Assembly: GCA_022616665.1 (NCBI GenBank) | Contig: JAKEFJ010000048.1 | Coordinates: forward strand, 1 to 48,790 | DNA: 48,790 nt | Direction: 5' to 3' | Source: Acidobacteriota bacterium | Lineage (GTDB): Bacteria > Acidobacteriota > Polarisedimenticolia > Gp22-AA2 > AA152 | Shown: positions 10,216 to 39,679 of the stretch, one piece after another | Numbering within the stretch: position 1 is the first letter of the stretch | Layout of the letters: each line of letters starts with the position of its first letter | Position numbers and translations under genes: made by a program | Notes under the pieces: generated by a model | What the model was told of the DNA's origin: nothing | Seen by the model: only the letters and a program-made list of their open reading frames with translations | Databases searched by the model: none

Positions 10216-10734
10216 TTACGAACCTAAGCCAGCCGCAGCTACCGGCCGCAGGAACTCTGGATCACAGTCGAGTGCTGCCTGGCGCCGGAAAAGCTCGAGC
10301 AGGATTCGGATCCGCTCGCCGCCGTTGAGGTGCGCTTCCACGCTCCCCTCAAAGCCGGCGAAAGGTCCTTCCACAATCCGCACCCGGGCTCCTGGCGCGA
10401 GGCAGCGGCGGTGCGGTCGATGGCGCAGCACGACGCGCTCCAGCTTGCGAATCTCCGCGAGCATCTCCTCGCCGATCGGAACCGGTGAGTCACCACTGGT
10501 AATCACACGCACCAGACCCGGGGTCCATCGGATCCCCGGATAGTCCTTCGCAAAGAAGAGCTTCACGAAGAGATAGCCGGGAAAAAGCGGCGATTCTTCG
10601 AAAAACCGCTTGCCTGCGCGACGGCGTCTTTGACGGATGCTGGGGCAATAAGTCTCCAGACCCGCACGTCCCAAAGCGGCCGACACCAGCCGCTCTCGCC
10701 GGGGTTTGGTCTGGACTGCGTACCAGAACGACAC
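10216..10734 (-). CDS. NusG-family specialised transcription antitermination protein (RfaH/LoaP-type paralog)
   Basis: MSFWYAVQTKPRRERLVSAALGRAGLETYCPSIRQ...SPLFPGYLFVKL...GLVRVITSGDSPVPIG...GARVRIVEGPFAGFEGSVEA: NGN plus KOW layout. Confidence 0.88.
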   Translation of the reverse strand: MSFWYAVQTKPRRERLVSAALGRAGLETYCPSIRQRRRRAGKRFFEESPLFPGYLFVKLFFAKDYPGIRWTPGLVRVITSGDSPVPIGEEMLAEIRKLERVVLRHRPHRRCLAPGARVRIVEGPFAGFEGSVEAHLNGGERIRILLELFRRQAALDCDPEFLRPVAAAGLGS

Positions 10735-10752: not shown

Positions 10753-10992
10753 CTAGCTGCGGCTTCCGTTACCGTTGCCGGCACTCTCGATTTCGCCCGC
10801 GGGGACGAGCCTGTTCTTTTCGAGCCATCTCAGCAGCTCCGACCTCTTGTAGCGAAGCGAGGCGTTTGGACTGCTCCCCAGCCGGTAGCAGGGAATCACC
10901 TGCTCCCGGGTGAGCTGCCACAACTTGGTCCGGCCGATCTTGAGATACCTTCGAGCCTCTGCACTGGTGAGGATTTCTTCTTTTCTCGCCAT
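10753..10992 (-). CDS. Helix-turn-helix (MerR/excisionase-type) DNA-binding protein
   Basis: MARKEEILTSAEARRYLKIGRTKLWQLTREQVIPCYRLG...LRYKRSELLRWLEKNRL is an HTH_17-like pattern. Confidence 0.78.
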   Translation of the reverse strand: MARKEEILTSAEARRYLKIGRTKLWQLTREQVIPCYRLGSSPNASLRYKRSELLRWLEKNRLVPAGEIESAGNGNGSRS

Positions 10993-11028: not shown

Positions 11029-12366
11029 CTAGAAAATCCTGAACGTCATTCCAAGAAAGTAATTGTCTACACGCTGCGTGTCGCCAGCCACCCCTGAGTT
11101 TTTTTGCTCGCGGAAGTTGGCAAGCGCGGTGAGACTGCACCACTCGGTGATGGAGTAGCCGCCGCTCAGAGCCAAACCCTCGGACTCGATGTCCACGGCG
11201 GTGGTAGCGCCACCCAACGATTCCCACTTGCTGTAGTCCAGCGCGATTCCGTAGGTGAAATTCCGGCCAATCTTCGAATGGAAGCTCGCGTAGAGTGAGT
11301 CTCCCACGGTGACGGTGTCGGCGCCTGTGTCAGCCGTGAGCCGACGCTGATACCCGCCCTCCAGATCGAATCGAAGGAACGACCGCCTCATACCGGCCCG
11401 ACCGATGAACAAGCGCTGGCTCCGGCTCCTTTCATCCGTTTCGTTGGTCTCCGATTCGATTTGTCCAGGTTGACAGATAATCGTTCGGGTGTAGTCGCGC
11501 ACCTGCTGATCCACCAGGGAAGAGCCCACATAGAGTTCCGTAGACCACGCTCCGGCCCTCGAATGATCCCAGCCGATCCCGAACTGGTTAGCGGTGGATC
11601 CCTGGGTTTGGGAAACGGTCTGGGTCACCAGTTGATCCGCAACGGCCCCAGCACAGGGATCGGCATTGAACGCGGGCTCTGAAGAGTAGAAGGTGATGAA
11701 CGCTGGAGCATAGAGGCCTGTCAGGGTGTCTTCCCTTCCCAGGACTCCAGTCAAGCTCACATTGCCAATGAGACCGTTATTGTCGGTGAAATCAGGATCG
11801 TCGAATCGATTGGCGTAGTACTGGACACCCCCCGTCCACGAGAGGGAACGGGAAAGCCCTTGCGAAAAATTTACCCCCGAGAGGTTGCGCCATCGTTTCT
11901 GGGTATTCGTGAGAATGGGTGAGTCGCCGGTTTCCGGGGTCGCCACGATAATGGGATCGCGGCTCAACGTGAAAGCCTCGCGAATCTGCAAGCTTGTGCG
12001 CTCGCTCAAGCGGTAGTTGGCCGCACCGTAGAAGGCCTGACTGAAGGAGTCCAACTCCGAAAAATCCAGATAATGGCTCAGGACCGGCCGGTAATTGAGC
12101 GACCACTCCGTCCTGGGGGTGTGGCGCCTCACATTCAGCTCCAGGGCCAACGTGGTGATGTAATCACTCTGGGGAGCGCCAGCGGAAAAGAAGACATTCG
12201 AGTTGGGTCGCTCACCAATGGTCGCGGTTAGATGATATTCATCGGGTCCCTGGGTTCCTACCGCGAGGGCCTGGCCCCGGGCGATTCCGGTCCCACCCGC
12301 CAGGGCCAGTCCCAGCGAGAGGCTCATCGAAATGGGTCGGTGGGAACGAGGGGATCGGCTGCTCAC
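11029..12366 (-). CDS. Outer-membrane beta-barrel protein associated with polysaccharide export
   Basis: Alternating amphipathic strands, aromatic C-terminus (NYFLGMTFRIF), N-terminal signal-like segment; overlaps the end of the Wza-like gene. Confidence 0.7.
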   Translation of the reverse strand: MSSRSPRSHRPISMSLSLGLALAGGTGIARGQALAVGTQGPDEYHLTATIGERPNSNVFFSAGAPQSDYITTLALELNVRRHTPRTEWSLNYRPVLSHYLDFSELDSFSQAFYGAANYRLSERTSLQIREAFTLSRDPIIVATPETGDSPILTNTQKRWRNLSGVNFSQGLSRSLSWTGGVQYYANRFDDPDFTDNNGLIGNVSLTGVLGREDTLTGLYAPAFITFYSSEPAFNADPCAGAVADQLVTQTVSQTQGSTANQFGIGWDHSRAGAWSTELYVGSSLVDQQVRDYTRTIICQPGQIESETNETDERSRSQRLFIGRAGMRRSFLRFDLEGGYQRRLTADTGADTVTVGDSLYASFHSKIGRNFTYGIALDYSKWESLGGATTAVDIESEGLALSGGYSITEWCSLTALANFREQKNSGVAGDTQRVDNYFLGMTFRIF

Positions 12367-12959
12367 GGCACGACCACCGTGTCGCCGGGCTCGAGTATCA
12401 AGTTCTGCTCCGGGCTTTTGCCGCTGAGGATTTTTTCGTAGTTGACGGTGATTCGCGCGCCGTTTTTACCGTTATTACGGATGATGATGATTTCTTTCTT
12501 TTTCGCAAAGGCGGTGAAGCCCCCGGCCAGCGAAATGACCTGCAGGAGATCGGTCTTGTTTTTCAAGATCAGGGCGCCCTGAGTGACCACCTCACCCATC
12601 ACATAGACTTTGTAGCTGTTCACTTCTTCAACGAGCACGGTGACCCGGGGCTCGCTCAGGTACTGCTTCAATCGCTCGGTCAGCACCAGTTTCAGCTCCA
12701 GGGGCGTGAGTCCCGCCGCCTGAAGATCGTCCAGCAGTGGAAATGAGATCTTTCCGTCGGGTCGAACGGGAACAGAGCGAGTCAAGTCCACTTCCTTCCA
12801 GACCTGGATATTCAGAACATCCCCAACGCCGATGCGGTAATCCCCGGCGGTGGAAGGGTCGGGCGCTTTCTCGGCAATGGGCGGGGCAGCCAAGCCAGGC
12901 GAAGCGATCGCCAGGGCGAGAACCCACGCTGCGGTGACACGCGGGAGACACTTCCACAT
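12363..12959 (-). CDS. Polysaccharide export protein with SLBB domain (Wza-like)
   Basis: MWKCLPRVTAAWVLALAIASPGLA signal peptide; DYRIGVGDVLNIQVWKEVDLTRSVPVRPDGKISFPLLDDLQAAGLTPLEL; VYVMGEVVTQGALILKNKTDLLQVISLAGGFTAFAKK. SD GGAGG lies 7 nt before ATG 12959. Confidence 0.9.
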   Translation of the reverse strand: MWKCLPRVTAAWVLALAIASPGLAAPPIAEKAPDPSTAGDYRIGVGDVLNIQVWKEVDLTRSVPVRPDGKISFPLLDDLQAAGLTPLELKLVLTERLKQYLSEPRVTVLVEEVNSYKVYVMGEVVTQGALILKNKTDLLQVISLAGGFTAFAKKKEIIIIRNNGKNGARITVNYEKILSGKSPEQNLILEPGDTVVVP

Positions 12960-13071
12960 CAACGAACCTCCTCGGGCCAGGGCCCAAGCCATCGAGTTTC
13001 ACTCCGCCACGAGAACGGGAAGCAAGCAGATACGCTTTTGTACCGATTTAGCCTTGAATAGAGCTCGGCTA

Positions 13072-13125
13072 CCCATTTCCTTTTTGAAATGGGGATATCC
13101 CTCTCTGGGAATCCCGCCCCAGAGA
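13072..13125 (-). promoter_or_regulatory. Tandem hairpins in the wza leader
   Basis: CCCATTTC-N6-GAAATGGG (13072-13093) and TCTCTGGG-N8-CCCAGAGA (13102-13125), both with perfect 8-bp stems. Confidence 0.55.
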
Positions 13126-13148
13126 ATCGAAAAATTACAATTTCGGGA

Positions 13149-13177
13149 TTGACAGCACCGAGGGGGCGTCGTATATT
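13149..13177 (+). promoter_or_regulatory. Candidate sigma70 promoter on the plus strand, antisense to the wza leader
   Basis: TTGACA (13149-13154), 17-nt spacer, TATATT (13172-13177). Confidence 0.5.
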
Positions 13178-13183
13178 TGACGC

Positions 13184-13335
13184 GAGAAACAGGCCTGACT
13201 CGTTATCCGATGATGAGGGGAGATTATTCTTAGCACGATACACCCCTGCCTGTTTGCGTCAGTTGTTCTGTTCGACACCCCGCCTTTTGCTTGGCAGTTC
13301 CCCGACCGGGGACTGTCAACGTTCCCTTTTTCTCT
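13184..13335 (+). ncRNA. Candidate structured antisense RNA
   Basis: Lies downstream of the TTGACA-N17-TATATT promoter. Contains paired GACGC(gag)AAACAGGC...GCCTGTTTGCGTC and ends in hairpin TTGGCAGTTCCCC-gac-CGGGGACTGTCAA, then CGTTCCCTTTTTC. No plausible ORF. Confidence 0.35.
13291..13319. repeat. Imperfect 12-bp inverted repeat (hairpin)
   Basis: TTGGCAGTTCCCC-gac-CGGGGACTGTCAA, one mismatch and one bulge. Confidence 0.6.
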
Positions 13336-13405
13336 CGATACTCGACTCAGCTGCTTCCATGCCCAGTTTCTGGATGGAAACACCTGCTCCGAGCTGTTTG
13401 CTCGT

Positions 13406-13427
13406 CCGTATGGGTGGTACGATACGG
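13406..13427. promoter_or_regulatory. Inverted repeat CCGTAT-N10-ATACGG overlapping the minus-strand -10
   Basis: Perfect 6-bp arms (13406-13411 and 13422-13427) at the -10/TSS of the candidate promoter. Confidence 0.35.
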
Positions 13428-13447
13428 CGTAACTAGTTGCTTGTCAA
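13419..13447 (-). promoter_or_regulatory. Candidate sigma70 promoter for the exopolysaccharide operon
   Basis: On the minus strand, TTGACA (13447-13442), 17-nt spacer, TATCGT (13424-13419). Confidence 0.5.
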
Positions 13448-13667
13448 GAGAAAAACTGGCTTCAGTTTGTTGACATCGACCGCCCAACAGTTTCGTTTTT
13501 GCCATTCTAACTTGTTCGAAGGAAACCAATTATGAGCAGTATGGATGCGAAGGTGCGAAGGTGCACTTCGAACAGAATGAAACAATCCGGACACAGGCAG
13601 AACCATACCGATGCTTGATTGAGGGGAATCCAGTGAAGGAGAATATTCGAGGATAAGCTTCGCGACT

Positions 13668-15716
13668 TCACGAGTCGAAGGATTTGCCGAACCGATCTTC
13701 CAACTCCGCACGAGCCACCTCCAGCAGATCCAGATCGCGCGGGAGATCAGCAACTCGCAGATCAGGAGTTCCCGATTGCCGGACTCCAAGAAATTCCCCG
13801 GAGCGTCTCAGCGAGAGATCTCGACGCGCAATCTCAAAACCATCGGAAATCTCAGCCAAGATTCTCAGGCGCTCCACTCCCTGGGGCGTGGTTCGCTCCG
13901 CCGGAATCAGGATGCACCAGGATGGGCGAATTCCGCGCCCGACCCGACCGCGGATCTGATGAAGCTGAGCCAGTCCGAATCGGTCCGCCTGCTCCACCAC
14001 CATGACGGACGCCTCAGGCACATCCACACCCACCTCCAATACGGTGGTGGAAACCAGAACCTGGACCGCTCCACTTGAGAACTCCCGCATGATCCGCTGG
14101 CGCTCTTCCCAGGAGAGCTTGCCATGAAGGAGTCCGACCTGTAGATCCGGGAAAACGCTGGAAGAGAGCCGGCGAAAGGTATTCATGGCCGAGCTTTCCG
14201 GCGCCAGCTGCGAGTCTCGAATGGCTGGAACCACAATGGCCGCCCTTCCCCCGCGTCCCACTTCCTCCCGAATGAATCGGTAAACCTTCTCCCTCTCTTG
14301 AGGAGCCCGTACGGCCGTCCTGACCGGCACTCTCCCGGGGGGCATCTCATCGATAAGAGAAACATCCAGGTCTCCATACAGGGCCATAGCCAGTGAGCGA
14401 GGGATGGGAGTCGCGGTCATGATGAGCTGGTGGGGGTTGCTCCCCTTTCCTCCAAGAAGCTCCCGCTGTCGGACACCGAATCGATGTTGCTCATCCACCA
14501 CAACCAGCGCCAGCCGCCGGAAGCGGACCGCATCCTGAATCAGAGCATGGGTTCCGATTGCCAAGCCCACGCGACCCTGGGCGATGGAAGCCAGCAGCTC
14601 CCCTCCTGACGAAACTCGAGATTGGGACGTGAGCAGGGCCATTGCATGGCTCGTCTTGCTCAGTAACTCTTCGGCGCTACGCGCGTGCTGCTCAGCCAGG
14701 ATCTCGGTCGGAACCATCCAGGCCACTTGATACCCCCTCTCCATGACCGCAATCGCCGCCAGGAGTGCCACCACGGTTTTGCCACACCCGACATCTCCTT
14801 GAAGCAGCCGCCCCATGGGATAGCTCCTGCCGAGATCCGCCAGAATTTCCGCCAGCGCTCTTTTCTGCGCATCCGTCAGGTTGAAGGGAGCGAGGGCGAT
14901 CAGTCCCTCTTGCCGATCGGGGGGAACGAAACATGGGAATCCCTCGCGTGAGCGGCGTTGGCCGCGGGCGCGGGCGAATGCGCATTGGAGGCGGTACAGC
15001 TCTTCCAGCGCCAGCCTTCGATGGGAGATGGTGAGCCCTTGCGCCAAGAGGCTCGCCTCGGTCCCGGCAGGCGGGAAGTGAACGTTTCGCAGGGCGCTCG
15101 CTCGATCCTCGAGCGACAAGCGCCGCACCGTCGCTTCAGGTAGCGGGTCCTCCATCGCTTCGGGAAGCGTCGCAAGCGCCCGATGGATGAGGGTGCGCAA
15201 CGAGCGCGTGGACAGATCCGCAGTGCGCCGATAGATGGGGACGATCCGTCCCGTGTGAGTACCCTCAGGGTCATCGCCCAGCACCTCGAACTGAGGGTTT
15301 TTGAAGAGGGGGAGTGGAGGCCCCTGTTCTGGGAGAGACGGGACGCCATGAAGCACCACCAGGCTGCCGTCCTTCAGGACATTCCGCAAATAAGGCTGGT
15401 TGAACCATCGAGCCGCAATCCCGCCGGTCTCGTCCTCCAGCCGCAGATCGAAAAGAGTGAATCCGCGAATCCTGGTTCTCCTCAGGCGGGCGTTTCGTAC
15501 CGTTCCCCGCACCGTCGCTGGAGCATCCACCAAGAGATCAGCAACCGGAATGAAGCGGCTGCGGTCTTCATACCGGAATGGGAGGACCATGAGAAGGTCC
15601 TCCACGGTGGCGATCCCGGCTTCAGCCAGGCATTCAGCCCGGCGCGGGCCGATTCCGCGAAGCTCGGTCAGCGAGGAGCCGAGGCGGAGCACCACTTCCC
15701 GCTTGGTCCGGCCCAT
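13668..15716 (-). CDS. recG: ATP-dependent DNA helicase RecG
   Basis: LRGIGPRRAECLAEAGI, LQGDVGCGKTVVALLAA, VVVDEQHRFGVRQRE, MTATPIPRSLAMALYGDLDVS, QIRGRVGRG. Confidence 0.96.
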   Translation of the reverse strand: MGRTKREVVLRLGSSLTELRGIGPRRAECLAEAGIATVEDLLMVLPFRYEDRSRFIPVADLLVDAPATVRGTVRNARLRRTRIRGFTLFDLRLEDETGGIAARWFNQPYLRNVLKDGSLVVLHGVPSLPEQGPPLPLFKNPQFEVLGDDPEGTHTGRIVPIYRRTADLSTRSLRTLIHRALATLPEAMEDPLPEATVRRLSLEDRASALRNVHFPPAGTEASLLAQGLTISHRRLALEELYRLQCAFARARGQRRSREGFPCFVPPDRQEGLIALAPFNLTDAQKRALAEILADLGRSYPMGRLLQGDVGCGKTVVALLAAIAVMERGYQVAWMVPTEILAEQHARSAEELLSKTSHAMALLTSQSRVSSGGELLASIAQGRVGLAIGTHALIQDAVRFRRLALVVVDEQHRFGVRQRELLGGKGSNPHQLIMTATPIPRSLAMALYGDLDVSLIDEMPPGRVPVRTAVRAPQEREKVYRFIREEVGRGGRAAIVVPAIRDSQLAPESSAMNTFRRLSSSVFPDLQVGLLHGKLSWEERQRIMREFSSGAVQVLVSTTVLEVGVDVPEASVMVVEQADRFGLAQLHQIRGRVGRGIRPSWCILIPAERTTPQGVERLRILAEISDGFEIARRDLSLRRSGEFLGVRQSGTPDLRVADLPRDLDLLEVARAELEDRFGKSFDS

Positions 15717-39355: not shown

Positions 39356-39679
39356 TCAGGAGCTGCTACCGGGAGGGGCCTCCCCTTCTCCCCCATCCGG
39401 CACTGCCGGTTCTCGAGGAGCTTCCTTCGCTTTCTCGGCGTTGGGGTCGAAGTGGATGAAATTCCCGAATGTCTTGCTGCTGCTGACGGTGGCGATGGCG
39501 TGCTTGAAAATCATCTGCTCGCCCTGGGAGCTCTCTACAATCACCGTGAACTTGTCAAAGCTCTTGATGCGCCCGGTGATCTTCCTCCCGCTGTTCAGGA
39601 ACACCAGGACGCGGGCCTTGTCCTTGCGGGCCTGGTTGAAGAAATCGTTCTGGATGTTCAGCGAGTCTTCCCGTTCCAT
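39356..39679 (-). CDS. hfq: RNA chaperone Hfq with acidic/Pro-rich tail
   Basis: MEREDSLNIQNDFFNQARKDKARVLVFLNSGRKITGRIKSFDKFTVIVESSQGEQMIFKHAIATVS; sits next to miaA. Confidence 0.92.
   Translation of the reverse strand: MEREDSLNIQNDFFNQARKDKARVLVFLNSGRKITGRIKSFDKFTVIVESSQGEQMIFKHAIATVSSSKTFGNFIHFDPNAEKAKEAPREPAVPDGGEGEAPPGSSS

Follow-up and report, generated by a model that had tools for sequence, protein, structure and literature searches.

In the window, that is, the whole stretch of 48,790 nucleotides analyzed here, which comes from a soil lineage of Acidobacteria, a 675-bp intergenic region separates recG (13668–15716) from a gene encoding a wza-like polysaccharide export protein (12363–12959), and both genes are encoded on the minus strand. 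The export protein matched Poly_export in a profile search, and its closest NCBIfam model was that of the XrtA/PEP-CTERM export protein, with a score below the cut-off. Its start codon is most likely the ATG at 12957–12959: a Shine-Dalgarno sequence (AGGAGG, 12972–12967) lies 5΄ of this ATG, and we therefore placed the start there. Together with the sense promoter described below, this gives a predicted mRNA leader of ~453 nt (12960–13412, minus strand) for the exopolysaccharide (EPS) operon. The gene downstream encodes an outer-membrane protein with a weak TIGR03016-like match, and is followed by genes for a small HTH_17 DNA-binding protein (10756–10992, minus strand) and an RfaH/UpxY-like NusG paralog (10216–10734, minus strand). 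The HTH_17 protein has 78–79% protein identity to its matches in two relatives (G002 and G003, the match in G003 containing one TGA within the matched stretch), and it likely regulates the EPS operon. A specialised NusG paralog encoded within the operon is one of the hallmarks of RfaH, UpxY and LoaP systems; the best NCBIfam models for the paralog found here were RfaH (95.7 bits) and UpxY (81.3 bits), both below the cut-off.

Two facing promoters in the operon leader

We scored promoters as the number of matches, out of 12, to the sigma-70 consensus. The initial annotation of this DNA had placed two convergent promoters in the leader, and both are present as described: a sense promoter, P–, on the minus strand (TTGACA-N17-TATCGT, 13419–13447, 10/12) and an antisense promoter, P+, on the plus strand (TTGACA-N17-TATATT, 13149–13177, 11/12). 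P– would be the main promoter of the XrtA-type EPS operon. P+ lies ~300 bp downstream of P–, so that, as read from the sequence, an opposite-strand promoter sits inside the leader and faces the sense promoter. The predicted starts are 13184 (plus) and ~13412 (minus), and the two transcripts would overlap by ~227 nt, close to the ~230 nt claimed previously. Markov-1 simulations of the 675-bp intergenic region yielded 0.09 sites of at least 10/12 and 0 of at least 11/12 per region, compared with the two sites of at least 10/12 observed, and simulations of the length of the window yielded 0.75 and 0 sites, respectively. In the 267 kb of the same genome that served as background, 19 sites reached at least 10/12 (7 per 100 kb), and P+ and P– formed the sole convergent pair separated by 60–500 bp. 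By these sequence comparisons, the promoter pair is not a product of chance.

Each promoter is preceded by an A/T-rich block. The block upstream of P– (AAACTGAAxCCxGTTTTTxC, 13448–13470, minus strand) is a candidate UP-like element or activator site; 14 of its 23 columns are invariant in four genomes, compared with 7 of 98 columns further upstream. The block upstream of P+ (AATTACAATTTCGGGA, 13132–13148, plus strand; also called the AATTACAATTTC block) is a candidate UP-like element or regulator site, with 14 of 17 columns invariant in the genus and 11 of 17 in the family. A third short block, GAACNGNATGAAACAAYYCGGA (13570–13603), located ~125–160 bp upstream of the sense promoter, is also retained in the genus and is a candidate activator site. 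A possible second sense promoter in block A was rejected by eye (TGTAAT without the A at position 2, and no –35 element).

Conservation of the promoter pair among relatives

The family comparison comprised four genomes: that of the window, two of the same genus (G001 and G002) and one of a sister genus (G003). recG is the neighbor upstream of the leader in all four. A DNA search of 60 relatives returned two strong matches in each of G001 and G002, each match corresponding to one promoter block, and a weak match in one further genome (G055). Each of the two blocks occurs once per genome. A search of 37 further genomes of the class did not find the sense-promoter block, and a wider family was rejected on this basis. 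The recG/wza interval carries TTGACA-17-TATATT (11/12) on the plus strand in G001 and TTGACA-17-TACAGT (10/12) in G002, with TTGACA-17-TACCGT on the minus strand in both. In G003, the minus promoter is intact and the plus site is degenerate (TTAACG-17-TTGATT, 7/12). The arrangement is accordingly found in three of three genus members, and the sister genus has the sense promoter only. Across the four genomes, P– retains an invariant –35 element (100%), a –10 element of TATCGT or TACCGT and a spacer of 17 bp in every case; in the three genus members, P+ retains an invariant –35 element, the 17-bp spacer and T1, A2 and T6 of the –10 element. The initial annotation had itself proposed the conservation of these boxes in close relatives as a test, and their retention in both same-genus genomes makes antisense transcription into the EPS leader likely.

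Sequence identity is distributed unevenly over the interval. Within the genus it is 82–94% for the 17 nt upstream of the P+ –35 element, 53–59% for the P+ spacer and 76–94% for the P– spacer, compared with 23–41% for the DNA between the promoters. The predicted overlap is nevertheless 227, 246 and 231 bp in the three genus members, and the equivalent start-to-start distance in G003 is 220 bp. The plus strand ahead of P+ contains no gene in any of the four genomes, and recG is on the minus strand; P+ is therefore not the promoter of a neighboring gene. A second wza-like gene of G001 also has an opposite-strand promoter, which precedes a divergent gene and therefore offers no parallel. These patterns suggest that the antisense promoter is likely under selection. 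Chance is considered the source of many antisense start sites in bacteria, as proposed for low-GC genomes (PMC7366714), and P+ might likewise be fortuitous, reflecting pervasive antisense transcription without function. However, P+ occupies the same place throughout the genus in an interval otherwise at background identity, and matches of this quality are rare in the genome, so that we regard a fortuitous origin as very unlikely.

Properties of the predicted antisense transcript and the sense leader

The predicted antisense RNA extends from 13184 to 13331 on the plus strand, with an uncertain 3΄ end at ~13275 by analogy with G001 or at 13331 by a hairpin followed by TTTTT. As proposed initially, it contains no plausible open reading frame: no reading frame was preferentially conserved between species, and the transcript is therefore considered non-coding. 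In particular, a 115-aa frame at 13089–13436 was rejected as a plus-strand small protein, its similarity being found chiefly at the conserved DNA blocks and in all frames alike.

The initial annotation had further described a structured antisense RNA ending at the hairpin (13291–13319, plus strand). Antisense transcription is the part of this proposal that remains likely; the structured RNA with that terminator is unsupported. The hairpin and the T run (13327–13331) both exist, but a 7-nt gap separates the stem from the T run, the hairpin sequence is not kept in relatives and terminator-like sites occur at the chance rate (2 found versus 2.2 expected from shuffled sequences). A good candidate for a terminator hairpin directly followed by a U tract was found in G001, and no convincing one was found for the plus RNA in the window, G002 or G003 (three of the four genomes). 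The fold of the window RNA from the predicted start at 13184 is no better than that of shuffled sequences (z = –0.2), whereas moving the start 5 nt upstream and truncating the RNA to 85 nt gives z = –3.4; because the value varies in this way with the chosen ends, it is too fragile to call. The first ~95 nt of the G001 plus RNA fold significantly (z = –4.3) into a compact three-way junction closed by the 5΄ end, followed by TTTTGTTTTTTT, and from the predicted start no significant fold was obtained in G002 or G003. Conserved secondary structure of the plus RNA was accordingly not found, the fold from the predicted start being significant in G001 only, and the sequences are too diverged to be aligned for covariation.

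These data bear on the possibility that P+ produces a dedicated structured cis-antisense RNA of ~95–150 nt, which would pair with the EPS leader and control translation, stability or termination. The junction in G001, the similar fold of the window RNA with the earlier start and the known parallels DonS and MtlS (see below) are in its favor, but the lack of a significant fold from the predicted start in the window and the other two relatives, together with the unconserved hairpin and the chance rate of terminator-like sites, argues against it. Sequence conservation is not required of an RNA whose sole pairing partner is its own complement, and this reading is therefore compatible with the divergence of the interval. 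On balance, we consider this reading doubtful, with an appreciable residual probability.

Alternatively, P+ might give rise to a housekeeping RNA or to a small RNA that acts in trans and may be a client of Hfq. An hfq gene is indeed encoded in the window, as noted initially (39470–39655, minus strand), 26 kb away, and the region around the P+ start is G+C-rich; promoters of stable RNAs often have a G+C-rich start region. However, nothing above chance was obtained when the window was searched against Rfam, or when the region was searched at lax settings, the plus RNA contains no conserved stretch usable as a seed, and no link between the leader antisense RNA and Hfq or hfq was found. The 6S RNA is located elsewhere in the genome (G000:C7:7156-7334), which rules out this identity for the P+ RNA. 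A trans-acting or housekeeping role is thus extremely unlikely.

On the sense strand, the leader forms a predicted hairpin near its 5΄ end (13343–13391, minus strand; –22.7 kcal/mol), and each of the three relatives has a comparable hairpin at much the same position, 18–42 nt from the leader start as taken in that fold. Over its first ~72 nt, the leader shows a tendency toward folds better than those of shuffled sequences (P < 0.0025 in the window; P = 0.025, 0.03 and 0.07 in the three relatives), in a test that was chosen after seeing the data. A consensus fold of the leader start contained no pairs, the alignment being too diverged. The loop and sequence of the hairpin, judged by eye, resemble neither ops nor the UNCG dfn hairpin; it could be a recruitment element for the NusG paralog. 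Further along the leader, downstream of the antisense promoter, tandem inverted repeats occur at 13050–13130 on the minus strand (CCCATTTC...GAAATGGG and TCTCTGGG...CCCAGAGA), and 100-nt windows at these repeats fold well in the window and in G002 (z of about –3 to –3.8).

The tendency of the leader start to fold in four genomes would also be consistent with a different view of the P+ region, in which the block at 13132–13184 mainly serves the HTH_17 protein or the NusG paralog, either as a regulator site or as an element of the sense-strand leader, and resembles a promoter by chance. Both candidate readers are encoded in the operon, the 17 nt upstream of the P+ –35 element are conserved like the hexamers, and more so than the –10 box in G002, and the upstream block persists in G003 while the hexamers decay. 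Set against these points, the exact 17-bp spacing is retained amid drifting sequence, and 11/12 consensus matches never arose in the simulations. On balance, we consider such a regulator site or leader element unlikely.

Proposed interference in the leader and its biological implications

By sequence, the convergent promoter pair in the EPS leader is real and conserved, and opposing transcription probably restrains the operon. In the mechanism that we propose, P+ would be a genuine, selected antisense promoter inside the operon leader, from which RNA polymerase would run toward P– and collide with or occlude sense transcription. In addition, the leader may be paired by the short antisense RNA, and each of these effects would reduce EPS expression for as long as P– is not activated. 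Since the promoters are conserved and the sequence of the overlap is not, the data fit interference by transcription itself no less well than they fit a dedicated RNA; two promoters held at a near-fixed distance around drifting DNA form the pattern expected if antisense transcription itself matters, or if the RNA acts solely on its own complement. We infer that P+ is active and repressive, and that it acts mainly through interference and less through a specific RNA. In our judgment, there is about an even chance that such repression, whether or not it also involves RNA pairing in cis, is the correct explanation. Against it, P+ is degenerate in G003, although its upstream block is still recognizable there, and a bare promoter does not explain why the 17 nt upstream of P+ are unusually conserved and persist in G003; the shortage of convincing plus-RNA terminators, noted above for three of the four genomes, also weighs against it.

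Control by convergent promoters is itself already known, and it is the location that is new. Literature searches on antisense RNA, covering both UpxY capsule leaders and the leaders of exopolysaccharide operons, found no direct precedent. In the mtlA system of Vibrio cholerae, the antisense RNA MtlS overlaps the mtlA 5΄ untranslated region, and interference between the two promoters was inferred (PMC6597380). As here, a promoter in the 5΄ region of the operon faces the operon promoter; however, the gene, phylum and signal differ, the overlap with the 5΄ untranslated region is 71 bp rather than ~227, and MtlS has been detected and tested, whereas the present case is known from sequence alone. 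The DonS family of Bacteroides glycan loci comprises short (78–128 nt) cis-antisense RNAs at the start of polysaccharide-related operons, thought to be repressive (PMC7366714). This position is the one proposed here, but the DonS RNAs lie antisense to susC homologues in the uptake loci of Bacteroidetes, whereas the present operon is for export, in Acidobacteria, and its RNA is predicted. For icsA of Shigella, the antisense transcript RnaG is mentioned in PMC6597380 as lowering target transcription by interference and attenuation; the likeness lies in this lowering of target transcription, whereas the gene is unrelated and no attenuator is shown here. Moreover, in a synthetic E. coli system, antisense promoters placed downstream of a sense promoter lower output in proportion to their strength, and antisense RNA and interference contribute about equal shares (PMC4731013), although these parts are engineered and act within E. 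coli.

LoaP/dfn and RfaH/ops (PMC12691694) resemble this locus in that a polysaccharide or secondary-metabolite operon has a long leader containing a leader element, together with a NusG paralog of the specialised type. They differ in that neither the UNCG dfn hairpin nor ops was identified here by eye, and the paralog does not reach the cut-off of the RfaH, UpxY or LoaP model. Its orthologs have 70% identity in G001 (at the end of contig C139) and 65% in G002, and none was found in G003, a genome listed as 100% complete, where the best match was 23%. The three genomes in which the antisense promoter is intact thus all have the paralog, and the one in which it is degenerate lacks it; this co-occurrence, a single contrast among four genomes, proves nothing and suggests a test. 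More speculatively, the operon's own NusG paralog would help sense polymerases through the leader. Transcription from P+ might then act as a built-in roadblock that only polymerases carrying this paralog pass efficiently, the antisense promoter and the antiterminator forming one switch that is gained or lost together, an extension that we regard as distinctly unlikely.

A literature search found few studies of regulatory RNAs in Acidobacteria. If P+ fires, this locus would offer the phylum a specific example, open to experiment, of exopolysaccharide export under antisense control; such export is a trait of importance in soil aggregation and desiccation. That the NusG paralog is found wherever the antisense promoter is intact, and is absent where it is not, also suggests asking whether specialised NusG factors aid polymerases against opposing transcription.
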